This document shows, one piece after another, positions 366-12,118 of a stretch of 21,854 nt of DNA. Made by a program: the position numbers and the translations under genes. The first letter of the stretch is position 1, and the number at the start of each line of letters is the position of its first letter. This stretch comes from a virus. Where the stretch lies: positions 1-21,854 of IMG/VR virus record IMGVR_UViG_3300025327_000166. One strand, written 5' to 3'. Below the pieces are notes generated by a model. The model was given only the letters and a program-made list of their open reading frames with translations, was not told the origin of the DNA and did no database searches.

Positions 366-2423
366 TTACTCCACCACCGGTATTACCGTACAGGTACAAT
401 TCGGGTGTAACGGTGGGCCTTCCACGCTATCGTAATCTATATTATAAGTTCCGCCTTCTGTACCGCTTATAGACTGCCCTGGCTCTAAATAGGTAGTCTC
501 TAGACCTAAGACCGTTCCGTGTATAGCTTGGCAGAATTGACAAGCCCCTGGATTAGCAAACCACTCTTTTTTAACTACGAAGCCGGTTTGCCGGTAGGCT
601 TCTAAAGTAGCTTCGGTACTTGCGTCTAAAGTCTCGGTTCGCGCTATTCTTTCGGCTCTAAACTTTTCGCTACTACTATAAAAACTTTCTATCTTTTTAG
701 TAGTATCTCTTAGAGTAGCGTTATTTAGAGTTGCGTCGGTTAGTATCTTTTCTAGTTCTTGCCTAGTTTCTCGATTGAAATTCAAACCGGCTCTGGCTAA
801 TCTATCCTTTAGATTATCCGTTATTCGTTGCGTTATCTCAAACTTTAGCTTTTCTTCGCCGGCTAACTGTAAAGCGATTGGGCCTTGGTCTTTAGCCAAT
901 TCTACCAAAATCGGATAGACTTCTTCTATTAGTCTTTTAGTTTCTTCGTCTAAATCAAATAAAATATCGTTATACGCTTTCGACCTAACGAACTGCGGAG
1001 TTAGTCTATCTATAACTACCTTCTCTTGTTTTTTTAAGAATTTAACTACTTGCTTTTTCGTAACCTTAGCGTACTTCTCTTGCATCTTAATAAGCGAAAT
1101 TCTAAAGTTCTCCTTAGTTTCGGGACTAATAATTAGCGCTTTAATCTTCGGTCTTTTATGGTGGATTATTTTAATAGTCGCCTTGCCATTTTCCTTTTTA
1201 ACGTCAGTTAGAATTTTCGCTGCTATTGGCGAGCCGGCCGGAGATAGATTAAAGGGTAGATAAAATTGGTCTCCGCCCTCGGTTGGCCCTAGTCCTTTCT
1301 CGGCTCTAATCTCGTCTCTGGTTTTCCACATATTGATAGCGGCAGTATCTTCGGAAAGTTGGGAGGTTCTATCTTCTGGGACGGGCGACTCGTATCTAAC
1401 GGTAATCGAAGGGTCGCCGTAGGTCTTATCGATATAAGTTTCTAAAGTATCGGCTATTCGATACATCTTCGGGTCGATAACTCTCTTAGCGAAAATATAC
1501 TCGCTACTTTCGGCGTTTGCTCTATTTACGTCCTCGGTAATACCTAGAATTGGTTTAGGAACTCGAAACATCGCCATAATATCATCTCGGCTCATATGCT
1601 TAGCGGTCTCTAAAGCTATCCCTTCTAAACCTGTTCCTAGTTGTGTAAAAGTAACTTCGGAGTTTCTAACGATTGCTACCTTACCGGCGTTATCAACGCT
1701 TCCATACTCGCTTCTCCAGCGTTCCTTAAGCTGCTTAAAATCGTCCTCGTTCATTTGCGGTACAGATAAAATACCGCTAGGACGAGCGTTATTAAATAAG
1801 AAGTTTCTAGTAAATCTAGAAGCGTATTCTTCTGTTTGTATATAAAGCTGTCCGGCCGCGACTACTCCGTAACCTCTAGATGGGTCTTCAGGATTAGGTA
1901 GCTTAAAATGCATTACTTCGTCTAATTCTAGGGGTACTTGCTCTCCGCTCGGTAGGTTATAAACGTAGCCCGTTATATATCCGTTCTTAGCCATTATTAC
2001 TTGGACTAAATCTGGTCTTAATAAATAAATCTCTTTAGGCTTTCTCGAAACCTCACCAACCCTAAAATACCAAAAAGCCTCTCCGGTTAATTCTATAAAG
2101 GCTTGGGTCAATTCAAATAAAACAAACTGCGAAATAAAAGGATTAGGTTTTCTTAGCAGGGTAATAAAAGGGTGGTTATCGATTTCTACTTCATCGCCTC
2201 TAGAATTATCTTTAACTATTTTGAATTGTATTTTTCCTACTTCTCCAGCTATCGCCCCTACGCAAGTCCAGACGTAGCCGACGTTACTTTTTAATTGGGT
2301 TCTTTTAGTAATAGCGTTGGGATTAGACCAATCCAGCATAAAGGTATTCTGCGAAGGTGTATTATCACCAAATCCGGCGAATAGTTTTCCGACTATTGGT
2401 ATTCGGACAAGCGGGTTAGCCAT
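366..2423 (-). CDS. Portal protein fused to Mu-F-like head morphogenesis domain
   Basis: 685 aa. Residues about 1-400 match an HK97-type phage portal: N-terminal wing region, a VWTCVGAIAGEV helix, the LLRKPNPF and ELTGEAFWYF segments, a VMHFKLPNP motif and a clip/stem region with RVPKPILGI. The portal is the dodecameric ring at the capsid vertex through which DNA is packaged. Residues about 500-685 form a second domain of the SPP1 gp7 / Mu gpF minor head protein family: a helical part with ERIARTETLDAS, then a metal-knuckle-like end with CQFC (near 640) and HPNCTC near the C terminus. The two are separate genes in many phages. Here one uninterrupted frame links them through a Lys-rich segment near residue 430. 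Lies 27 bp after terL. No clear Shine-Dalgarno precedes the ATG. Confidence 0.9.
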   Translation of the reverse strand: MANPLVRIPIVGKLFAGFGDNTPSQNTFMLDWSNPNAITKRTQLKSNVGYVWTCVGAIAGEVGKIQFKIVKDNSRGDEVEIDNHPFITLLRKPNPFISQFVLFELTQAFIELTGEAFWYFRVGEVSRKPKEIYLLRPDLVQVIMAKNGYITGYVYNLPSGEQVPLELDEVMHFKLPNPEDPSRGYGVVAAGQLYIQTEEYASRFTRNFLFNNARPSGILSVPQMNEDDFKQLKERWRSEYGSVDNAGKVAIVRNSEVTFTQLGTGLEGIALETAKHMSRDDIMAMFRVPKPILGITEDVNRANAESSEYIFAKRVIDPKMYRIADTLETYIDKTYGDPSITVRYESPVPEDRTSQLSEDTAAINMWKTRDEIRAEKGLGPTEGGDQFYLPFNLSPAGSPIAAKILTDVKKENGKATIKIIHHKRPKIKALIISPETKENFRISLIKMQEKYAKVTKKQVVKFLKKQEKVVIDRLTPQFVRSKAYNDILFDLDEETKRLIEEVYPILVELAKDQGPIALQLAGEEKLKFEITQRITDNLKDRLARAGLNFNRETRQELEKILTDATLNNATLRDTTKKIESFYSSSEKFRAERIARTETLDASTEATLEAYRQTGFVVKKEWFANPGACQFCQAIHGTVLGLETTYLEPGQSISGTEGGTYNIDYDSVEGPPLHPNCTCTVIPVVE

Positions 2424-2450: not shown

Positions 2451-3734
2451 TTAAATAAAATCAAATTCAACATTTGGTTGATAAACTAAGCGCCAGCACA
2501 TCTCTAGAGCATCGATAACGTCTAGATTTTCGCTATCGGGATAATCCTGCATCTCTTGCCAAAGTTCGTTATCACCCTTAAATAAAATCTGGCCGGTGTT
2601 AATAAAAGGCTCTAAACTCTCGATACGCTCCTCTTTTTTCTTACTTTGGTTTATCCCCTCGAACGGTATGTAGCGACCCCTATCTTGGCTTTTTTCCTTA
2701 ATAACGTCTAAAAAGTATTTCTGGAATTGTACCGACTCTATCCCAAACCTCTCGAATTGGTAGGGTAAGTTAAAGATAGTTCGGATAGTTTCTTCGGGCG
2801 GCATTTGCTTACCGATACTTTCTACCTCGTAGACTTTACCGTTCTTATCTTTTCCTAAAACTACGATACCTACTAAACTACCCTTCTTAGTTTCTCCTAG
2901 AGCTAAATCGCAAGAACCCCAGTATTTAACTATCTCCGGTAGGTATTCGTATTTTTGCGGCTTAAAGTAAGTAAACTCGTTAGCTTCGGGAAATTGGACT
3001 AAATAGTATCGCTTCCAATCTTTACCGGTCGTTTGCGATTTCTGTTGCTCTAATCTTTCTTGGTTTATTCTGCCTTCCGCTATAGCTTGCTCTAGAGGTA
3101 CTCTAACCTTTTTATAAAGCGGGTCTTTGTAGGCGGTCTCGAAGATACTATTCTCGATACAGTTTCCGCTTAATACCATTTTACCCCAGTCGCCCTCTAG
3201 CATACGAACTATTTTAGAAAATTGCTCTTGCCGTTTTATTAGTCCGGCTTCTTCGACTACTACTATATCCCCACCCTCGCCGACTACTCTTTCGCCTTCT
3301 CTAGTTATATTTCTAGAGTCTACGCTAGTAATATAAATCCAGCCCCCGTCATACCACCGCAAGGCTTGCTTACTCATCTGCACTTTTAGTTTTTCTATAT
3401 CGGAAATATCGGCGTTAATTAGACCTTTATATAACTTAGGGTGGTTAGAGATATGCTCTAAAACATACTCCATAATCTTCTGGGCTTTTTCTTCACTACC
3501 GGCGACAATAGGTATTTTTAGATTGCGGAAAACTGCTAGATAAAGACAGGCTATCGCTATATCGTCCGTTTTACCGTAGCGCGTAGGAGCAGAAATCCAA
3601 ACCCACTTATATTTAGGATTAGTAACCGCTTCGAAAATATCGCACTGCCCGTCGGTTAAATCAAACGGCTTACCCTGTTTCGTTCGGAACAGGCTCGCTA
3701 CCAGCGTCTTTATTATCCGGTTCTTCTTCGTCAT
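2451..3734 (-). CDS. terL: Terminase large subunit (TerL)
   Basis: 427 aa DNA-packaging motor. The ATPase half shows a Walker A-like motif APTRYGKTD (about 49-57), a Walker B DIVVVEEA (about 156-163, with the catalytic Glu) and a coupling motif SGN (about 189-191). The RNase H-fold nuclease half begins at WGSCDLALGE (Asp near 276), continues with FGIESVQF and ends with DVIDALEMCWR. Length is usual for the family. The first 65 nt overlap the upstream DUF5681 gene in another frame, so the true start could be later, but no better in-frame ATG with a ribosome site is visible. Order is small terminase candidate, TerL, portal, as in many siphophages. Confidence 0.92.
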   Translation of the reverse strand: MTKKNRIIKTLVASLFRTKQGKPFDLTDGQCDIFEAVTNPKYKWVWISAPTRYGKTDDIAIACLYLAVFRNLKIPIVAGSEEKAQKIMEYVLEHISNHPKLYKGLINADISDIEKLKVQMSKQALRWYDGGWIYITSVDSRNITREGERVVGEGGDIVVVEEAGLIKRQEQFSKIVRMLEGDWGKMVLSGNCIENSIFETAYKDPLYKKVRVPLEQAIAEGRINQERLEQQKSQTTGKDWKRYYLVQFPEANEFTYFKPQKYEYLPEIVKYWGSCDLALGETKKGSLVGIVVLGKDKNGKVYEVESIGKQMPPEETIRTIFNLPYQFERFGIESVQFQKYFLDVIKEKSQDRGRYIPFEGINQSKKKEERIESLEPFINTGQILFKGDNELWQEMQDYPDSENLDVIDALEMCWRLVYQPNVEFDFI

Positions 3735-4032
3735 AGGCTTTCTGTAATATACCGGCTATTTCTTCGGTACTCTTAGTATCGTCGAAAGTAACCGTAGCTT
3801 TCTGTAAGGGTTTGCCGTCCATATAAGCCCAGACTAATTCTATTGCCTTTAAGTCTCCACCTAGAGCCTTGTCGATAACTTTAGCCCCTAGAGCTTGCTT
3901 AATTCTAGGGTCGGAGTTCATCATCTCCCTAATAGTCTCGGTTATAGAATAGCCTTTAGGCGGCCTACCGCTTGGGTTGCCGCTCTCGCCTGGTTTGAAA
4001 GAAGTATCGTTAGCTTTATCTTCGTTTGACAT
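3670..4032 (-). CDS. DUF5681-type protein, candidate small terminase subunit
   Basis: 120 aa. The N-terminal part contains the basic signature FKPGESGNPSGRPPKG (about 12-27), diagnostic of the DUF5681 family found next to phage terminases and in some mobile elements. A helical region follows (SITETIREMMNSDPRI, then KVIDKALGGDLKAIELVWAYMDGKP) and an acidic tail. The position immediately before terL, overlapping it by 65 nt, makes a DNA-recognition small terminase subunit the best guess, but the sequence alone does not prove it. An AGGG ribosome-site core sits just before the ATG at 4032. Confidence 0.75.
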   Translation of the reverse strand: MSNEDKANDTSFKPGESGNPSGRPPKGYSITETIREMMNSDPRIKQALGAKVIDKALGGDLKAIELVWAYMDGKPLQKATVTFDDTKSTEEIAGILQKAYDEEEPDNKDAGSEPVPNETG

Positions 4033-4067: not shown

Positions 4068-4142
4068 TGGAGCGTCAGGGTCGGTATCGCACCGCCTTCT
4101 CTAGCTTGGAAAGCCAGCGTCTTACTTTTAGACGACTGACGC
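4068..4142 (-). tRNA. tRNA-Gly(UCC)-like gene with atypical elbow
   Basis: A full cloverleaf can be drawn by hand. Acceptor GCGTCAG/CTGACGC (4142-4136 with 4078-4072). T8 and C9. D stem GTCT/AGAC with loop AAAAGTA. G26. Anticodon stem CTGGC/GCTAG with loop TTTCCAA, giving anticodon UCC at 4110-4108. Variable loop AGAA. T arm GGCGG, loop TGCGATA, CCG-A-CC with one bulged A. Discriminator U73 and an encoded CCA (4070-4068). G1-C72, C2-G71, G3-C70, C35, C36 and U73 are glycine identity elements in bacteria. Odd points: the D loop has no G18G19, position 55 is G instead of T, and one base is inserted in the T stem, so the normal D-loop/T-loop elbow pairs cannot form. Its first base is the last base of the mom-like gene's stop codon. 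It may be a specialised non-translational tRNA or a decaying one. Confidence 0.72.
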
Positions 4143-4783
4143 TAGTTAATCTCTTTAAGATAAGGTTTTCTAAATTTCTCTACTAACTCTTTTAAGCTAG
4201 GTTCTAACGGCATTAGGTATTTATACTTACGCTTTATTATTACTTTCTCTACTTCGCTATCTATATTTTTCCTAATCCAGTCTAGGCTATGAGTATTATA
4301 CCTCTTACCGATTGTTCTAGTTTGATATACAACCCCTCTTAATTTAATTAAGTTAGCTTGTCCGGCTCTACCCATAAAAACCCAATTACCCGCTTGGTAT
4401 ATCTTACCTAAGTGTCCGTAATTAGGGTCGGAGAAAGAAACTACTAACTTAATTCCTTTGTTAGCTTTTTTTAATAAATTAAGCGCTATCGAAACTATTT
4501 TAGTAACTGCCGCTTCGTGCGTTCTCAAAGCTATTCTAGTCAACTCGCAGATTTCGGTTTGCTTTAACCCGAACGGCCTACCTATATTTCTACTAGCTCC
4601 TCGGCTAAATATAACTACCCCAATAAATTTATTATTTTCCCAGACTCCTATTCTTACCGACTTACCGTAAGGCATCGATTTAGAATAATGCCAATTTTCT
4701 ACCGCGTATTTAGCCGCTTGGAACGTGCAGAAATCAAGGTGTAAATTTCGCTCCGCATTCGGGACATTCAACTTCTTTTGCAT
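4142..4783 (-). CDS. Mom-like DNA adenine modification protein (GNAT-type)
   Basis: 213 aa, resembling the phage Mu Mom family of GNAT-fold DNA modification proteins. Recognisable blocks: WHYSKSMPYGK (about 31-41), the beta strands GVWENNKFIGVVIFSRGA, a PFGLKQTEICELTRIAL block (about 70-86), then VVSFSDPNYGHLGKIYQA and NWVFMG (about 114-138). Mu Mom converts certain adenines to an N6-carbamoylmethyl (glycinamide-like) form that blocks restriction enzymes. By homology this protein should modify the phage's own DNA. Its ATG lies inside the end of the ParB-like gene (50-nt overlap), recalling the overlapping com-mom pair of Mu. A tRNA-Gly-like gene starts at its stop codon. The exact start is uncertain, as no strong ribosome site is visible. 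Confidence 0.8.
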   Translation of the reverse strand: MQKKLNVPNAERNLHLDFCTFQAAKYAVENWHYSKSMPYGKSVRIGVWENNKFIGVVIFSRGASRNIGRPFGLKQTEICELTRIALRTHEAAVTKIVSIALNLLKKANKGIKLVVSFSDPNYGHLGKIYQAGNWVFMGRAGQANLIKLRGVVYQTRTIGKRYNTHSLDWIRKNIDSEVEKVIIKRKYKYLMPLEPSLKELVEKFRKPYLKEIN

Positions 4784-5231
4784 CGAATTTGTCTAATAAA
4801 GCCTCGTTACCGGTAGGCGAGAAATTATCTAGTAATTCTTGTAAGTTTACCGCTTTACTTAAATCAACTTTATAATCTTCTAGGTTTATTTTAACGCCGT
4901 TAATTAACTCGGCTAAGTCTGTATCGATATAATATCCGGCGCGGTCGTTATCGCTAATAGCTATTTCTATTTTTTCTTCTTCGGTTTTTACGTTTACTAT
5001 ACTAACCCAAACATCCTCAATCCCTAAATCCTGTAAAATTCTTAGACGCATATTTCCGCCTAAGACTTCGCCGTCCGGAGTTATAACTAAAGGTTTATAA
5101 AGATACTCGCCGGTTATTTCTTTAATCCTTGTAAATTGTCTTTTTAGCCGCTCGAAGTCGTCTTTAGTTATCGCTCTAGGGTTCTTGTCCCAATTCCTTA
5201 ATTTAGATATATGCCAGATAGTTTTTTCCAT
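4734..5231 (-). CDS. ParB/Srx-like domain protein with C-terminal CxxC knuckle
   Basis: 165 aa. The N-terminal 100 residues fit the ParB-like nuclease/Srx fold: ISKLRNWDKNPRAI, PLVITPDGEVLGGNMRLRIL (about 47-66, with the GGN-R signature), then VNVKTEEEKIEIAISDNDRAG. In phages this domain commonly accompanies DNA-modifying enzymes. The last 15 residues contain CPECGAKF, half of a zinc-ribbon, and this part overlaps the start of the mom-like gene. The ATG at 5229-5231 shares its A with the stop of the preceding gene (TGATG), so translation is probably coupled. Inference: it helps target or feed the Mom reaction, or acts in regulation as Com does in Mu. No proof of catalysis can be read here. 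Confidence 0.75.
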   Translation of the reverse strand: MEKTIWHISKLRNWDKNPRAITKDDFERLKRQFTRIKEITGEYLYKPLVITPDGEVLGGNMRLRILQDLGIEDVWVSIVNVKTEEEKIEIAISDNDRAGYYIDTDLAELINGVKINLEDYKVDLSKAVNLQELLDNFSPTGNEALLDKFDAKEVECPECGAKFTP

Positions 5232-5479
5232 CAGCTTATTTTAGAGTTTCCTTTATCCGGTAGCTTATCGGTAACCATTATATTTCCGTATTCTATCTCG
5301 CCTTTTATTAAGTCTACTTTTTCGACTTTATTCTTTAACATACCGACCCTCTGGCGTTCGACCATTAGGATAACGTCCCAGTCTATATTTATTCGGTTTA
5401 CCGCCCGTTCGTGGAACTCTTTGTCGTGCTGTAGGTCTAGCATCGTTTGTAGGTTTCTCTTTTCGATTGAAAATTTCAT
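5231..5479 (-). CDS. Unknown 82-aa protein upstream of the ParB-like gene
   Basis: No family recognised. 82 aa, mixed charged. An FHERAVNRINIDWDVIL segment is followed by VERQRVGMLKNKVEKVD, which looks helical, then a short C-terminal strand region. It is linked on both sides by overlapping stop/start codons: ATGA with the glycosyltransferase at 5476-5479, and TGATG with the ParB-like gene. It therefore belongs to the same translationally coupled string. Coding is supported by these junctions and by codon choice like its neighbours. Confidence 0.65.
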   Translation of the reverse strand: MKFSIEKRNLQTMLDLQHDKEFHERAVNRINIDWDVILMVERQRVGMLKNKVEKVDLIKGEIEYGNIMVTDKLPDKGNSKIS

Positions 5480-6285
5480 TTTATATGGTAAGGCTGTAAT
5501 TGCCAGCCGTTTTTATCTTTTTTCCAGACTACGCTTACTATTTTACCATCTACCAGTAAATCTTGCTTCGGGGTTATATGTATAGTTTTAATTGTCCAAT
5601 TAACGTAGGCTTTATAACCTTCTTTTAGAACGTCCATAACGTAGCAAACGTCTGGGCCGAAGCACTCCGCGAAGAACCGATATTTTATATTCTGATATAA
5701 ATAGGCTAGGGTTAGATAACAATAGAAACCGCCGCCTGTAATAGGTTCTAGACTCTCATATTTAGGCGGCTCTAAAGTCTTTTGTATAGTCGGGTTTCTT
5801 AAATCGTCTACTTTCCAAACTCCGGCCATTTTAATTCCGTGCCTACCAACCTGTACCCCTTCTATATAGCCGACATTGTAATCTAGTTGGAAGTCGTCGT
5901 ACATCTTACGAAAGGCGTTCGGAGGAACTAAAGTATCATCCTCGATACCGAAAACGTAGCTACCCTTAATATCTTTTTTACTTCGTTCTTTCATTTCGAT
6001 TATCCGGTTGCGTTGTATCGAAATCCTAGTATTAGTCGGGGCAGGATTTCCGCTAATTAAGATTTTAGAGCCGTTAAATTTATCTTTCCGTTCTTCTAAG
6101 AAGGCGGTCGTCCTATTGATTATATTCTGATTATCAGTATCTATATAAAAATAAACTTCCGTGCCGAGCCAAGGCATTTCTAAGTTATCTAAACTAGGTA
6201 AAAACCTATCTAGCGCCCACTCTCTAGTTAGCGGTACGAAAACGGTTACAAGCGGCTTTTCCGACGGTTTTATTACTTTAAGCAT
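5476..6285 (-). CDS. GT-A glycosyltransferase (family 2-like)
   Basis: 269 aa. It begins with a strand typical of GT2-like enzymes (PLVTVFVPLTREW), then VYFYIDTDNQN and, at about 112-119, FGIEDDTLVP, whose EDD replaces the DXD metal/nucleotide-sugar motif. Later segments YIEGVQVGRHGIKMAGVW and PITGGGFYCYL fit the acceptor-binding part. It probably transfers a sugar from an NDP-sugar in the cytoplasm; donor and acceptor cannot be told. It overlaps the preceding GT-B gene by 13 nt and the next gene by 4 nt, so it belongs to the sugar-enzyme cassette. Confidence 0.8.
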   Translation of the reverse strand: MLKVIKPSEKPLVTVFVPLTREWALDRFLPSLDNLEMPWLGTEVYFYIDTDNQNIINRTTAFLEERKDKFNGSKILISGNPAPTNTRISIQRNRIIEMKERSKKDIKGSYVFGIEDDTLVPPNAFRKMYDDFQLDYNVGYIEGVQVGRHGIKMAGVWKVDDLRNPTIQKTLEPPKYESLEPITGGGFYCYLTLAYLYQNIKYRFFAECFGPDVCYVMDVLKEGYKAYVNWTIKTIHITPKQDLLVDGKIVSVVWKKDKNGWQLQPYHIK

Positions 6286-7322
6286 TGTTCGAAAGTATCT
6301 AGGTAAACTTGCCTCATTTTATTCCAAGAAAGTCTTTCGGCTATTTCGTTAGATTTTTCGCTTAATCTTTCGACTAACTTATCGTCGCTCGCTAATTGGT
6401 CTATCTTATCCGCTAATACTTGAGGTTTAGTCTGGTGGCTTGGCATATGCATCCTAGTAAAAAGCATTTTTCTACTATCAGTATTTATTAAGGACTCGGC
6501 CTCTAGTATCTCGTTCTGGGGCGGTAAGTTAGTCATTATCGGTACTAGGCCGCGAGATAAGCTCTCTTGTAGCTGTAAGGATAAGCCGCCGTATTTTCTA
6601 GGTAGAAGTAGACAATCATACTCTCCGACGTAATTTTCCCAATAGTTCTCTACTTCTCGGTCGTCTATTCTAGTATTAAAAGGGCTAGGGTTTTCTATAT
6701 AAAACTGCGACTTAATAATAAACTCGACGTTTTTACTTTTAACTAGAGGTATAGCTTCCAGAACTATATCCGTTCCGTTCCGATTATCCTCAGTCTTATG
6801 GCCGGCGATATGTAAAAATCTTCTAGCTTTAGTCTTTTTGGTAAAAGTTAGAACTTCTCTATTTATAGGTACGGGTAATTCGATAATCTTTACTTTATCG
6901 CTAAAGTTATTTCTAACATCGTCTAAATTCCAATTAGTCGGCGCGGCTAGTACGTCTGGGAAAGCCCAGTCCGGCCTAACGAAATAATCTAGAAATTCGT
7001 AATTAAATTGGTTAATAGAGATGACACCTTTTTCTTTGGCTAGGGAAAATAATCTGTAAGAATAAGGAGACTCGATAGTAAATACTAAATCTATATCGGT
7101 TAGAAGCCAATTAAAATCTACTTCGTTAGGGAAGCCGTGTACAAACTTTACATTATCGCCGGTATACCATCGAGGATAGGTTTTAGCAATCTTACCTTTA
7201 GACTGATTAACCGCCGTTATATCTACAACTAAAGTTTTATCAGGTTTAATATGGTCGTAAAACTCTTTTGTTTGTACCCCAAGTCCCGTACTATCGCAAC
7301 GGGCTACTAGACCAATTCTCAT
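6273..7322 (-). CDS. GT-B glycosyltransferase (family 4-like)
   Basis: 349 aa. N-terminal Rossmann half with RIGLVARCDSTGLGVQTKEF, and a C-terminal half with RRFLHIAGHKTEDNRNGTD, VEFIIKSQF, YDCLLLPRKYGGLSLQLQES and SRGLVPIMTN. This is the GT-B donor-binding arrangement of GT4-like enzymes, with the E of LQLQES at the usual E-x7-E place. The enzyme is expected to be cytoplasmic, moving a sugar from an activated donor; substrate unknown. Its ATG shares bases with the stop of the upstream gene (ATGA at 7319-7322). Confidence 0.82.
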   Translation of the reverse strand: MRIGLVARCDSTGLGVQTKEFYDHIKPDKTLVVDITAVNQSKGKIAKTYPRWYTGDNVKFVHGFPNEVDFNWLLTDIDLVFTIESPYSYRLFSLAKEKGVISINQFNYEFLDYFVRPDWAFPDVLAAPTNWNLDDVRNNFSDKVKIIELPVPINREVLTFTKKTKARRFLHIAGHKTEDNRNGTDIVLEAIPLVKSKNVEFIIKSQFYIENPSPFNTRIDDREVENYWENYVGEYDCLLLPRKYGGLSLQLQESLSRGLVPIMTNLPPQNEILEAESLINTDSRKMLFTRMHMPSHQTKPQVLADKIDQLASDDKLVERLSEKSNEIAERLSWNKMRQVYLDTFEQCLK

Positions 7323-8962
7323 AAGTTTTTATACATCGGCTCACCGGCTCTCCCGTCTAAGTGGTAGCTTCTTTTCATATCTCCGCTCGGAGCGTAAACC
7401 ATTATTTTCCAATCATTCCAGCCGGCCTTGCCCCTGTCCTTATAATCGCTAATTACTCTACCGTGAACCTTATCCTCTATAAAAGACTTCTCCTCCGGAT
7501 TAAAATACTTATCTAGCGTTTTTATATAAAATTCGGTAGAGGCGAGGTGCGGTCGTTGCGACCACTGCGCCGTTCTAATTATGGGAACGTCGTTAATAGT
7601 TATCGGTTGCTCGTCTAGCATCAAATGCTTATGGTCGGGTAGTATAAGAGCCTCGTGGTGAAATCTAATTAAATTAGCGTCGCCCTCTAGAATAGTTTTC
7701 TGTAATGCCTCCCAAGGTATATATTCGCAGAGCGGCGTGTCGTGTTCTACAAAAAGAATAAGCGGAGTTTTAACATCTCTTAATACTTTTCTAGTCATAC
7801 CGGACTGGTGGTTAAACTCGTCGAACATTACCGGAGTAACTTTTTTCCACTCGAAATTAGTTTTCCAAAGTATTCGTCTAATATACTCCTGATAATCATT
7901 ATTACTCTCCTTTTGCTCCTCACGCACGCCGTCAATCATTAAAATTATTTCCGAACCTGGCAGTTTATCTCTTACGCTTAAAATAGTTTCTTCTATAATC
8001 GAAGTATCGGGGTTAGACTTTATAGGCGAAGTTGGTATTAAAACTGTAATAAGGCCGTAATCCATTTTAGTTTTCGATAGATAACTAATATCTTCTTTTA
8101 TATTATATTCTAGTTTCTTTTTATATTGTTGCCACCAAGAGAAAACTCGATTATTAACGTTAGGATACCTGTCGTAATAGTTTACAAATACCCCTTTTAG
8201 CTTTTTCCAGTCCGTTAGAATAGGGAAAGGTAAATCAGAAGAAGCAGAGTTAGTAAAAAGGTAACGCCAATAATTAGTAGCTTTCGCATTTTTAGGTATT
8301 TTATCATCTACGATAGGAACGCATCCAGCCTCTAAGGCTTCGTAGAAACGAAAGGTATCAGGAGTTTCCGGCCCAGAGGGGCAAATAGCTATCTTCGTTC
8401 TAGATAATAACTCGTAATAGTCTTTTCTACTTAAACCCTCGGTAAACCTTTCAGTTTCGTTTAAGAACCCTTTATACTGCTCGTCCTCTAATAAAGCGTG
8501 CATAAACTTAGCGGCTAGTTTTCTTCGTTTATGAGTTATCTGTCCAGAAAAAGCCCAATCGTAGTCTTTCACTCCGTCGTTTTTGCCTATAAGTTCTCTA
8601 GCGTCCGGAGGCCAGCCATCGCCTAAATACCTGTCTGCTATTTTAGGTTTATGAAAGTCTGGGGTCATTTGATAAACTAATAAACGTTTGTGTTTTAGCT
8701 TATCTATCGGAAATACGTTTTCTTCGTCTCCGGCTAAAATAATTAAAACCCAATCTAGGTTTTTTATATCCTCGTTTATTTCGTCTACCTTATCAGAGTG
8801 GGAACGGGCAGGGATAATAACTATCGCTCCGCCGCTTTCGACCATTTTATCTTCGTGCCAGAACTCCTCGCCGGAGAATATATACTCTAAAAGACCCTCG
8901 TCCCAGTAACCCCGATTAGGAGTATCTTCTTTATAGCTTTTCCAAACTACCGGTATTCTCAT
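7319..8962 (-). CDS. Two-domain glycosyltransferase: exostosin (GT47)-like plus GT2-like
   Basis: 547 aa, clearly longer than single-domain glycosyltransferases. Residues about 1-275 resemble the exostosin/GT47 fold: WAFSGQITHKRRKLAAKFM, then KIAICPSGPETPDTFRFYEALEAGCVPIV, the hallmark C-terminal donor-site block. Residues about 300-547 resemble a GT-A/GT2 enzyme: LITVLIPTSPIKSNP, SEIILMIDGV, and LILFVEHDTPL in the position of the metal motif. The two activities would be physically linked, perhaps adding two successive sugars. It overlaps both neighbours by ATGA junctions. The fold assignment of the C-terminal half is less sure than that of the N-terminal half. Confidence 0.75.
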   Translation of the reverse strand: MRIPVVWKSYKEDTPNRGYWDEGLLEYIFSGEEFWHEDKMVESGGAIVIIPARSHSDKVDEINEDIKNLDWVLIILAGDEENVFPIDKLKHKRLLVYQMTPDFHKPKIADRYLGDGWPPDARELIGKNDGVKDYDWAFSGQITHKRRKLAAKFMHALLEDEQYKGFLNETERFTEGLSRKDYYELLSRTKIAICPSGPETPDTFRFYEALEAGCVPIVDDKIPKNAKATNYWRYLFTNSASSDLPFPILTDWKKLKGVFVNYYDRYPNVNNRVFSWWQQYKKKLEYNIKEDISYLSKTKMDYGLITVLIPTSPIKSNPDTSIIEETILSVRDKLPGSEIILMIDGVREEQKESNNDYQEYIRRILWKTNFEWKKVTPVMFDEFNHQSGMTRKVLRDVKTPLILFVEHDTPLCEYIPWEALQKTILEGDANLIRFHHEALILPDHKHLMLDEQPITINDVPIIRTAQWSQRPHLASTEFYIKTLDKYFNPEEKSFIEDKVHGRVISDYKDRGKAGWNDWKIMVYAPSGDMKRSYHLDGRAGEPMYKNL

Positions 8963-9624
8963 AATCTAAATAATATATTAGCCTGATTAAAGTTCATATC
9001 GCCATTAAAAGGAGCGCCGTCTATAAAAGCCTTATAGCCGACCTTAGTTAATTTATTATAGATTTCGGGATAACTATTATTAAAGACGGGGCTAAATTCT
9101 ATAAATAAGTTATTAACTCTTTTAGCTAAAATTAAATCCCAAAGTTTCTCGATTGCGTAAACTTCGTTACCTTCTATATCAATTTTTACTAACTCTATAT
9201 TACCGATTGCTAAACCGTAGTAGGGAGATTTAGCGTTAATCCATTCGTTTTTTACAGTAACCTTAGATGCTATAAGGTTCTCGGCTAAATTCTTATTTAA
9301 TAAACTTAAGTTGTTTTTATCGCCGTCTATAGCTAAAACGCGGTAGCCTAGTTTAGCCGCTATTATCGTATACCAACCTATATGACAGCCTAAATCCCAG
9401 AAATAATTATTTTTATCCCCGTCCTCTAGAACTTTCTTTATTATTTCTGTTTCCGGTTTCTCCCAAGCTCCGGTATTTATTAGGGTTCTGGAAACGTCGT
9501 CTTTACCGGAACAATAACCGGCGACGTTTTTATATCTTTCGTAGTTGTAGACCCACATAAAGCCTATCGAGGTTTCTATCTTAAAACTATCGTGGTCAGA
9601 GTGTCCGGCTTGGCATTGGTTCAT
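8959..9624 (-). CDS. FkbM-family SAM methyltransferase
   Basis: 221 aa. SAM-binding motif I FWDLGCHIGWYT (about 75-86), motif II VLAIDGDKNN (about 97-105), then VKIDIEGNEVYAIE and LFIEFSPV, the standard order of FkbM enzymes, which usually O-methylate sugars or other small acceptors. The start at 9624 overlaps the preceding methyltransferase by 29 nt; a later ATG (MWVYNYER) is possible. It is one of three methyltransferases interleaved with four glycosyltransferase genes, so methylation of a glycan is the natural inference. Confidence 0.8.
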   Translation of the reverse strand: MNQCQAGHSDHDSFKIETSIGFMWVYNYERYKNVAGYCSGKDDVSRTLINTGAWEKPETEIIKKVLEDGDKNNYFWDLGCHIGWYTIIAAKLGYRVLAIDGDKNNLSLLNKNLAENLIASKVTVKNEWINAKSPYYGLAIGNIELVKIDIEGNEVYAIEKLWDLILAKRVNNLFIEFSPVFNNSYPEIYNKLTKVGYKAFIDGAPFNGDMNFNQANILFRL

Positions 9625-10279
9625 AGGCGGTTTTATCAGTTTCTTTTAATAACCTTTTATTTATCTTTTTGGCGGTAATCCAAGTCCACTCCGGATAAAT
9701 CAAACCGTACTGTTCTTTATCTATAGTTAGGCCGCTTTTATCTAGTAGCCAAGATATATAAGGGTACGGATAGTGGTGGCTAAACGGTTCGTGTTCGTCG
9801 CCTTCTATAAACTGGAAAAGGAAAACCCCGTTTTCTGCGAGAACGCGCCCTACTTCCTTAAAATAACTCTCGACCCCTTCCTTATCGATATGCTGGAAAA
9901 CCGTTACCGAATAGATAAAGTCGAAATAGTTATCCTCCAACGGCAGAGTTCGGCCATCGTTGTCTATCAATTCTAAATTGGGGGGTTTAGAACCGTCTGC
10001 GTTTAATAACCTAGCTGTCTCGCCGGCTATTCTTATTAGACGCTCCGATATATCTACCCCGCACCAGTAGGTATCGCGTCTATATCTAGATAGGGGAATT
10101 AACAACCTACCTATACCGCAACCTATCTCTAAGTTTTTTGTAGCGTGAATTGGCGACTCTTTAGCAATTATACTTAATTCTACTTCTAGAGATATTTCGG
10201 GGTCGTGCATTTCTAAAGCTATATTTTTAGACTTAGCTTTATCGTCCCAGTATTTCTTTTCGATATCAACTCTTTTCAT
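9596..10279 (-). CDS. Class I SAM methyltransferase (type 11)
   Basis: 227 aa. Motif I NLEIGCGIGRLLIPL (about 49-63), an acidic loop GVDIS for the SAM ribose, and LPLEDNYFDFIYSVTVFQHI as motif IV with the following helix, then a VLAENGVFLFQF strand. This is a typical Methyltransf_11 protein of normal length. The acceptor is not identifiable. It overlaps the gene before it by 14 nt and the one after by 29 nt. Confidence 0.8.
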   Translation of the reverse strand: MKRVDIEKKYWDDKAKSKNIALEMHDPEISLEVELSIIAKESPIHATKNLEIGCGIGRLLIPLSRYRRDTYWCGVDISERLIRIAGETARLLNADGSKPPNLELIDNDGRTLPLEDNYFDFIYSVTVFQHIDKEGVESYFKEVGRVLAENGVFLFQFIEGDEHEPFSHHYPYPYISWLLDKSGLTIDKEQYGLIYPEWTWITAKKINKRLLKETDKTAYEPMPSRTL

Positions 10280-11012
10280 AGAATAGGTGTACCTCGTGCT
10301 GGTAATCTAACAAGGTTTCTTTATACCCAAACGCTTTAATCCAGTTCCTTAAATCAGTTAGGTATTCTTTATATTGGTGAAACATAAATTCGGGGTGGCC
10401 GCTTAACCATATTTTTGGTCTATGCTTTTTTATAGTATCACCTGCCCCTTCCAAAACTCGCCACTCGCTACCCTCAACGTCCAGTATTATTGCTGTAGGA
10501 TAAGGTATAGTTTCCGCTATCTTATCTATCTTAAACTGCGGCAATCCGTCAGCTTCTTGATATAACTCACTAAACCCGTGGGCTTTCTCAATCTTTCCTC
10601 TAGCATAAATAGGCCACCCGTCTTTATCAGTTACCCAACCCAAACCCTTAAATATATTTTTATCTGGTTTCTTTGGCATTGGCCTATGTAGATTGCTAGC
10701 GAAACCAGCAAAACAACCTAAAGGTTTCTTTAATTTATTAGCTTCCCAAACCGCTTTAATAACCGGCCAAGCCTTGTAGTTTGGTTCGAATAAAACCACG
10801 TGCGCCCCCCACATTTGGCACAACGCCGGCATTTCGCCTAGCTCCGCACCGACATAATAAACTATATCTAGCTTACCGATATTCTCGTGCATAGACTCAA
10901 GGCGTTTCTTTTCCCAACCCTGCTTGGTGTACCATTCCGGTCTTGCCGCCCTATGTTCGGGAAGTTTTATCTTAAACTTACCGTTTATTAACGTGTCAAC
11001 CATTTTTACCAT
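10266..11012 (-). CDS. FkbM-like methyltransferase
   Basis: 248 aa. Rossmann signature IVYYVGAELGEMPALCQMWG, the acidic turn VVLFEPNYKAW and the late FkbM block TAIILDVEGSEWRVLEGA, followed by a C-terminal strand ending HEVHLFYEKS. The glycine-rich loop is weaker than in the other FkbM gene of this window, so SAM binding is likely but less certain. The insertion at about 105-150 (FAGFASNLHRP onward) is not seen in the other copy, so the two are distant paralogues at best. The ATG at 11012 lies 3 bases after the small upstream ORF. Confidence 0.7.
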   Translation of the reverse strand: MVKMVDTLINGKFKIKLPEHRAARPEWYTKQGWEKKRLESMHENIGKLDIVYYVGAELGEMPALCQMWGAHVVLFEPNYKAWPVIKAVWEANKLKKPLGCFAGFASNLHRPMPKKPDKNIFKGLGWVTDKDGWPIYARGKIEKAHGFSELYQEADGLPQFKIDKIAETIPYPTAIILDVEGSEWRVLEGAGDTIKKHRPKIWLSGHPEFMFHQYKEYLTDLRNWIKAFGYKETLLDYQHEVHLFYEKS

Positions 11013-11015
11013 ATT

Positions 11016-11192
11016 CTACTTTTCACCTTTAGGTATCATAAATCTTTCTATAAAGTCAGAGGACATCCCTATGTGATAACTATTGGCTACAACTTGAGTA
11101 ACTATATTAAATACCAGTTGACGAGTAATTAAACCTTTTTCGTAAAGTAATAAAAGACCTTTAACTAAATCCTCAAACCCTAATTCTTTCAT
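11016..11192 (-). CDS. Small unknown protein (58 aa) between sugar-enzyme genes
   Basis: Begins MKELGFEDLVKGLLLLYEKG and ends FMIPKGEK, 58 aa, probably all helical. Support for coding: its ATG overlaps the stop of the CgeB-like glycosyltransferase as ATGA (11189-11192), its stop is 3 bases before the next ATG, and it fills exactly the gap between the two genes. No family recognised. It could be a small partner of the neighbouring enzymes. Confidence 0.6.
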   Translation of the reverse strand: MKELGFEDLVKGLLLLYEKGLITRQLVFNIVTQVVANSYHIGMSSDFIERFMIPKGEK

Positions 11193-12118
11193 TTATTTAT
11201 AACCTCCAATATTTTAGCCCACCTTTGTAAATAAGTGTGGTCTCTTTTAGTGCGCTCGTGGCCGGCTATTCTTATTCTTTCGCGCTCCTCGTCGTGGGTT
11301 AGAAAATAATCTATAGACTGCTTTAAGTCATCGAAGTTACCGAAAGTATAAGTAATTAGTTCTTTTTCTAAATCGAAGTAGTCCTCGATACCTTTTATAT
11401 AAGGAAAGATAATAAATCCGCCCCTGCCGGTCGTCTCGAATAGTCTATCGGAGAAGTAATAAGGATAATTAAAATTAGGTGAAAGAGTATCGCCGATAAC
11501 TATTTTCGTAGAGGCGTAAAGAATGTTCAACTCCCTGCCACGAATAACACCCTTACCATCCCCGCCCCAATGCTCGAACTTATCTTTATAAGTTTCTTTT
11601 AGCCAGTCTATCAGTTTTGGCCGCCAAGCCCACTCCTCGTGATAACCCCGACTACCTACAAATACAACATCTTTAATAGGGCTAAAGCCTTCGTATATAT
11701 AACACTCTTTATCGTAAACTCCGGCCGGCATAAAATATCCTTTTACTTTGGTGTTTTTATTTAGCCAGTCTGCCATTTGAGGGTCGACCGTAAAGAAATA
11801 GTCCAAATCAAAAAGCTCGCTATCTTTGTATTCGTCCCACCTTTTAATACCCATATATAGGTCTAAGTGGTAAGTCAGAGTAGGTATTTTTCGCCTCTTT
11901 AGTTCCCTGATAGCTTCTCTAAGCATATCCGTATGCCACCCGTGGGTATGTACCCAAATAAAAAGGTCGGAACGCTTAGCGCTATCAACTACCTGCTCCG
12001 CACTAGCGCGCTGTTCCGGTAATTTAATTACTTCGTGTCCTAGAGACTCTAAAGATAAAGCGTGGTGGTTCTCGCTACTAAAAGGCACATCAAAGTTTCC
12101 TAAGAAAGTAATTTTCAT
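11189..12118 (-). CDS. CgeB-like GT-B glycosyltransferase
   Basis: 309 aa. It starts MKITFLGNFDVPFSSENH, continues with KRSDLFIWVHTHGWHTDML and a central strand DVVFVGSRGYHEEWAWRPKL, and ends with the block NYPYYFSDRLFETTGRGGFIIFP plus FDDLKQSIDYFL. This is the pattern of the CgeB / glycosyl transferases family 1 group, with the donor-side E in RLFETTGRGGF. Usual length. It is linked by ATGA overlaps to both small flanking genes. Substrate unknown. Confidence 0.8.
   Translation of the reverse strand: MKITFLGNFDVPFSSENHHALSLESLGHEVIKLPEQRASAEQVVDSAKRSDLFIWVHTHGWHTDMLREAIRELKRRKIPTLTYHLDLYMGIKRWDEYKDSELFDLDYFFTVDPQMADWLNKNTKVKGYFMPAGVYDKECYIYEGFSPIKDVVFVGSRGYHEEWAWRPKLIDWLKETYKDKFEHWGGDGKGVIRGRELNILYASTKIVIGDTLSPNFNYPYYFSDRLFETTGRGGFIIFPYIKGIEDYFDLEKELITYTFGNFDDLKQSIDYFLTHDEERERIRIAGHERTKRDHTYLQRWAKILEVINK

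Follow-up and report, generated by a model that had tools for sequence, protein, structure and literature searches.

Why should a virus begin a tRNA gene on the final base of the stop codon of a DNA modification gene? This arrangement is found in IMGVR_UViG_3300025327_000166, a complete virus record of 21,854 bases that is covered in full by the stretch of DNA analysed here (the window). A preliminary description of the locus had noted a tRNA-Gly(UCC)-like gene abutting a mom-like gene, which in turn overlaps a ParB-like gene, and had proposed that the phage carries its own tRNA-Gly to feed Mom, so that DNA modification takes a glycine unit from charged tRNA. The layout is as described: the mom stop codon (TAG) lies at 4144-4142, G1 of the tRNA is position 4142, and the mom-like and ParB-like open reading frames (ORFs) overlap by 50 bp (Table 1). 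The minus strand of the window encodes terminase, portal, and lysis and recombination-type genes, and the parB-mom-tRNA unit sits immediately upstream of the packaging genes. The DUF5681 gene that follows the unit is probably packaging-related. The small ORF that precedes it had no family match in Pfam or PHROG searches.

Table 1. Features of the parB-mom-tRNA unit and neighbouring genes (positions in the window)
Feature	Position	Strand	Basis
tRNA-Gly(UCC)-like gene, encoded CCA included, 75 nt	4068..4142	-	Rfam RF00005, fold, model R1
Anticodon UCC; C35 and C36 are GlyRS determinants	4108..4110	-	Sequence
Bulged A in CCG-A-CC, the 3' strand of the T stem; hallmark of these elements	4081..4081	-	Sequence
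Discriminator U73	4071..4071	-	Sequence
mom-like gene; product predicted to modify DNA at adenine N6, GNAT-like fold	4142..4783	-	Pfam PF25680, PHROG 1384
ParB-like gene, C-terminal CPxCG zinc-knuckle motif	4734..5231	-	ParB-like PHROGs
Small ORF upstream of ParB-like gene (context only)	5231..5479	-	
DUF5681 gene, next downstream of tRNA element (context only)	3670..4032	-	Pfam PF18932, E 9e-11
Terminase large subunit, after DUF5681 gene	2451-3734	-	PHROG
Portal, after terminase large subunit	366-2423	-	PHROG

The mom-like gene proved to be a true member of the Mom family, as its product matched the Pfam Mom family (PF25680) with 149.7 bits (E 1.1e-43; cut-off 27.1) and PHROG 1384 with an E value of 2.6e-51. 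An AlphaFold2 model of the protein (pLDDT 92.3) has a GNAT-like predicted fold. The top Foldseek matches of the model were to Mu Mom (8bv8; E 1.8e-11 for chain A and 1.5e-11 for chain B), with GNATs next, and BLASTP gave 24% identity between the window and Mu proteins. The 8bv8 protein is mutated at S124, the catalytic serine of Mu Mom. If numbering follows a 241-residue form, S124 is the final serine of the NSES motif; the window Mom has threonine at this position and most relatives have serine.

Although the Mom product has been known since 1983, the question of its donor was left unsettled for decades. In Mu, this product is the deoxynucleoside of alpha-N-(purin-6-yl)glycinamide (Swinton, 1983, as cited in PMC4461284). 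Glycyl-CoA was earlier proposed as the donor, based on the GNAT fold (PMC7824862). At a meeting in October 2025, R. M. B. Silva (New England Biolabs) reported that adenosine hypermodification in Mu depends on tRNAGly for glycyl transfer (PMC12908700), which lends outside support to the chemistry suggested in the preliminary description. The principle of tRNA-Gly as Mom donor is thus not new, having already been announced for Mu. The GNAT fold of our model would also suit a Mom that uses glycyl-CoA or another acyl-CoA, with the neighbouring tRNA unrelated to catalysis; given the tRNAGly dependence reported for Mu and the mom-tRNA linkage found here, such a donor seems hardly probable at all. 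In the open-licence PMC literature, a body that leaves preprints outside, we found no published report of a dedicated, phage-encoded tRNA linked to mom.

The RNA of the window element runs from 4142 to 4068 and has an encoded CCA at its 3' end. It scored 31.6 bits against the Rfam tRNA model RF00005 (E 9e-5; gathering score 29) and folds as a cloverleaf with a z-score of -3.9, which none of 200 shuffles equalled. ARAGORN, run on the window, did not report it. The element carries the full bacterial glycine identity set (G1-C72, C2-G71, C35, C36, and U73). Its D loop, AAAAGUA, lacks G18G19; its T loop, U-G-C-G-A-U-A, lacks T54-T55-C56; and its T stem is broken by the bulged A. The element therefore lacks three features by which an elongator tRNA is recognised (G18G19, T54-T55-C56, and an unbroken T stem). 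U33 and U8 are retained, which counts against a non-ribosomal role. A first reading of the T stem, with a G.A mismatch at 50-64, was replaced by the bulged A on the evidence of folding, the Rfam alignment, and a parse of 130 elements.

To learn how often mom is accompanied by such an element, we scanned viral and prokaryotic collections and obtained 184 elements adjoining mom genes, 130 of them non-redundant. A first viral scan gave 71 contigs encoding relatives of the window Mom. We inspected the sequence after mom for most of these and saw a tRNA-like element in nearly all, beginning in the last mom codons or just after them. We placed 27 elements on a named cloverleaf (24 from first-scan contigs or the window and three from isolated phages), built the covariance model R1 from this alignment, and ran it on the 77 loci of a second viral scan, of which eight came from contigs that the first scan had also given and 69 were new. 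The window element, itself among the 27 training sequences, scored 74.6 bits. R1 found a counterpart at 68 of the 77 viral mom loci and in 60 of the 69 new contigs. Chance placement was rejected, since 56 of these 60 matches start between -10 and +27 nt of the end of the mom match and on the same strand. The remaining four lie 534-678 nt further on, and in three contigs (L198, L216, and L238) a second mom gene ends where the distant match lies. R1 gave no further match in 410 kb of second-scan contigs. Once five elements identified by eye were added (L188, L189, L205, L230, and L243), 65 of the 69 new contigs contained the element; neither R1 nor inspection revealed one in the other four (L225, L228, L232, and L235). 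The preliminary description had proposed looking for mom homologues with an adjacent tRNA-Gly, and the proposed link withstood this search: within this Mom clade, about 94% of new viral contigs have the element, a divergent clade carries it ahead of mom instead of after it, and isolated phages possess it as well.

No other type of tRNA was seen beside mom. A tRNA-Thr(TGT) lies about 1.3 kb after mom in L024/L025 (5846-5919). In an AT-rich Bacilli MAG (L136, from 1692 onward), the sequence after mom is element-like with an anticodon that by eye is not glycine, a possible exception. Tandem mom genes occur in L017, L058, L198, L216, L238, and L316, and an element usually accompanies either the second gene or every gene; in L058, each of the two genes has its own. 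In L051, an element (1456-1524) ends the first, apparently split mom ORF, and a second mom downstream is without one.

Of 80 mom loci from prokaryotic genomes, R1 matched 48. Among these are 23 loci, mostly from Chloroflexota-type MAGs, that have the element upstream of mom; the two are usually no more than 135 nt apart, and in some loci the CCA overlaps an ATG. The Mom proteins of these loci are 24-33% identical to the window Mom (for those aligned) and form one clade, starred in our tree, on the side that contains Mu. Among isolated phages, the element is present in Salinibacter phage B2_17, where it is annotated as tRNA-Gly, and in Arthrobacter phages Sicarius2 and BarretLemon, where it is unannotated; in Microbacterium phage Appa, a near-normal tRNA-Gly(CCC) adjoins mom on the opposite strand. 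A phage-borne tRNA is not universal among Moms: beyond the two clades a linked element is mostly absent, and Mu has none. There was none at 19 Mu-like loci and, in a whole-genome scan, none anywhere in the genomes of Mu, phiEf11, ICP1, phiSA_BS2, Salmonella VSiP, and others. More distant viral Moms gave only 19 R1 matches from 80 loci, and no element was found next to mom in Paenibacillus, Yersinia, Serratia, and actinomycete loci, though these are inside the main clade. When whole host genomes were scanned, R1 missed an element visible by eye (L091), and its sensitivity for forms without a D arm is limited in genomes of this size.

What have these elements kept? In the 27-element alignment, 94.3% of cells were base paired, compared with 37-43% when the partners were slid, and 138 cells were compensatory. 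G1-C72, C2-G71, G3-C70, G10-C25, C35, C36, and U73 were invariant. In the non-redundant set, G1C2G3 was present in 125 of 130 elements and U73 in 127. C35 and C36 were found in 97 of 105 parsed seven-base anticodon loops; by eye, the other eight appear to be register errors of the parser, with NCC in each arm. Only glycine-type anticodons were found, and those with A34 (ACC) were common. The bacterial glycine identity set consists of U73, G1-C72, C2-G71, C35, and C36, together with G10 in Thermus (PMC9976931). As the conserved positions of the elements match these determinants, glycine identity for GlyRS has been kept.

Features used on the ribosome have fared differently. U33 was present in 44 of the 105 seven-base anticodon loops and missing from 61, 40 of the 122 T loops with seven bases had T54-T55-C56, with U-G-C forms also occurring, and in 36 of 130 elements there is no space for a D arm. 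In 104 of 130, the five-pair T stem is interrupted by one bulged base between 63 and 64, which is an A in 102. All 18 upstream elements have this bulge, and 33 of the 36 elements that lack a D arm are compatible with such a stem. Host tRNA-Gly genes of three mom-bearing genomes were canonical by eye. In Ancylobacter (L094), for example, the prophage element has the bulge and no D arm, and the host tRNA-Gly is canonical.

tRNAs are common in phages, and an ordinary tRNA aiding host translation of glycine codons might lie beside mom by coincidence. Such a tRNA would fit the near-normal gene of Appa and the three of 130 elements that keep all four elongator marks that we tested (G18G19, T54-T55-C56, an unbroken T stem, and U33). 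However, coincidence explains poorly why tRNAs of the glycine type only recur at mom, and an ordinary tRNA would not be expected to lose U33 or the D arm, carry an ACC anticodon, or contain a bulged T stem; we regard this explanation as very unlikely. Glycine codon use in the window, where GGT (135) exceeds GGA (94), is a poor fit to a UCC anticodon and did not support codon supplementation.

In 78 of 103 cases, the mom frame stays open through the element and reaches a stop codon only past its end, so that excision of the tRNA would leave the mom mRNA without a stop codon. This readthrough and the close overlap with mom could mean that the element is never charged and acts in cis, as a processing or stability signal of the mom mRNA or as a switch, or that it is a relic of integration at a tRNA-Gly gene. 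Of 112 downstream elements, only 64 encode the whole 3'-CCA, as might be expected of an uncharged structure, although a host enzyme can add CCA. However, a mere processing signal has no use for near-invariant C35, C36, and U73, and the element occurs both after and before mom. Regarding a relic, most viral loci are internal to phage contigs, and that of the window is beside packaging genes rather than at an attachment site. An uncharged element is, in our estimation, very improbable. As a separate matter, we considered and rejected the idea that selection keeps the mom frame open across the tRNA: this frame was open in 81 of 103 cases and the other two in 49 and 37, but a tRNA-frame control revealed confounding.

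Since charging determinants are kept and ribosome determinants are lost, repeatedly at mom, the product of these genes is suggested to be a charged glycyl-tRNA for Mom. The linkage, the retained GlyRS identity, and the lost ribosome features all support the earlier proposal that the phage supplies its own tRNA-Gly. From these features of sequence, the element is very probably a non-ribosomal glycyl-tRNA that is charged by host GlyRS and feeds Mom as the glycine donor for adenine modification. It also seems likely that the elements make up a class of tRNAs, widespread in phages and prophages, that evolved as a dedicated Mom substrate and is marked by glycine identity, by the bulged A of the T stem, and often by the absence of a D arm. 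Glycine from the element would then probably serve Mom as a building block of the DNA modification.

A conserved acceptor stem could instead point to a decoy or replacement tRNA-Gly that counters tRNA-targeting defences (tRNA nucleases, toxSAS like FaRel2, or GNAT toxins like TacT) and shares a counter-defence island with mom. FaRel2 selects tRNA-Gly by the acceptor stem, which the elements keep (PMC11559606), as does TacT, and phage tRNAs are able to counter such defences (PMC12409363). However, a replacement must function on the ribosome, and most elements are without the features needed for this, while a decoy requires neither C35 and C36 in its anticodon nor overlap with mom. The L058 locus, with an element at each of its tandem genes, points to mom itself. 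The chance that the elements are decoys or replacements is slim indeed.

For a glycyl-tRNA that feeds Mom, we infer four steps: charging, avoidance of EF-Tu, transfer, and rearrangement. Host GlyRS would charge the element, glycine identity being kept. EF-Tu binds tRNA at the T stem, and the defective elbow and bulged T stem would keep the element from EF-Tu and the ribosome; the sequence features are consistent with GlyRS charging without EF-Tu binding. Mom, with its GNAT fold, would transfer the glycyl group from the element to phage DNA, at adenine N6. Direct N6 acylation would give an isomer of the Mu product, and this isomer would become the known glycinamide if its glycine nitrogen attacked C6 within the molecule. 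Moms without a linked tRNA, such as that of Mu, would use host tRNA-Gly. On the other side, charging itself might suffer from the bulge and from the lack of a D arm; this, and the loss of the mom stop codon that excision would bring, speak against a donor role.

Several known systems resemble the mom elements in part. Cell-wall tRNA-Gly species of Staphylococcus have a U-G-C T loop and are missing G18G19. These non-proteinogenic tRNAs, which serve FemX/A/B in forming the peptidoglycan cross-bridge, use a glycine tRNA outside translation, as proposed here, and escape EF-Tu through T-stem changes (PMC9976931). Judged from descriptions, the likeness is incomplete: the Staphylococcus genes are bacterial and serve the cell wall, whereas the elements are phage-borne, tied to mom, and have a bulged T stem and forms without a D arm. 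TacT toxins share the GNAT fold with Mom and recognise glycyl-tRNA, via U73 and G71 (PMC9976931); TacT acetylates glycyl-tRNA, whereas Mom is proposed to take its glycyl group. Mu Mom belongs to the same protein family and fold as the window Mom, and its modification is the one reported to depend on tRNAGly (PMC12908700), but Mu and its near relatives have no linked tRNA, and Mu has com upstream, where the window operon has parB upstream and tRNA-Gly built in. Phage-encoded elongator tRNAs are likewise small tRNA genes on phage genomes. Those tRNAs span many kinds and retain their ribosome features, whereas the mom elements are degenerate, adjoin mom, and are exclusively of the glycine type.

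We know of no earlier tRNA genes dedicated to DNA modification, and the elements would be the first. They would constitute a new class of non-ribosomal tRNA, mostly missed by annotation tools, and the mom-tRNA loci would represent an answer to the donor question written in genome structure. The loci name many natural enzyme-tRNA pairs. They also offer natural minimal tRNAs, without a D arm and with a broken T stem, that are apparently still selected for charging by bacterial GlyRS.

The third member of the window unit matched ParB-like PHROGs (best E 1.5e-16). Of 139 loci, 114 have a ParB-like gene upstream of mom at a distance of at most 1.8 kb, often overlapping mom; it was absent from all tested loci with an upstream element but one, and from six tested actinomycete genome loci. 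Where the CPxCG ParB-like protein overlaps the start of mom in the window, Mu has the zinc-finger translational activator Com. Elsewhere in the window, the minus strand contains a series of glycosyltransferase-like and methyltransferase genes at 6273-12118, two of the methyltransferases identified by Pfam match and the other genes by eye, that perhaps function in glycan synthesis.
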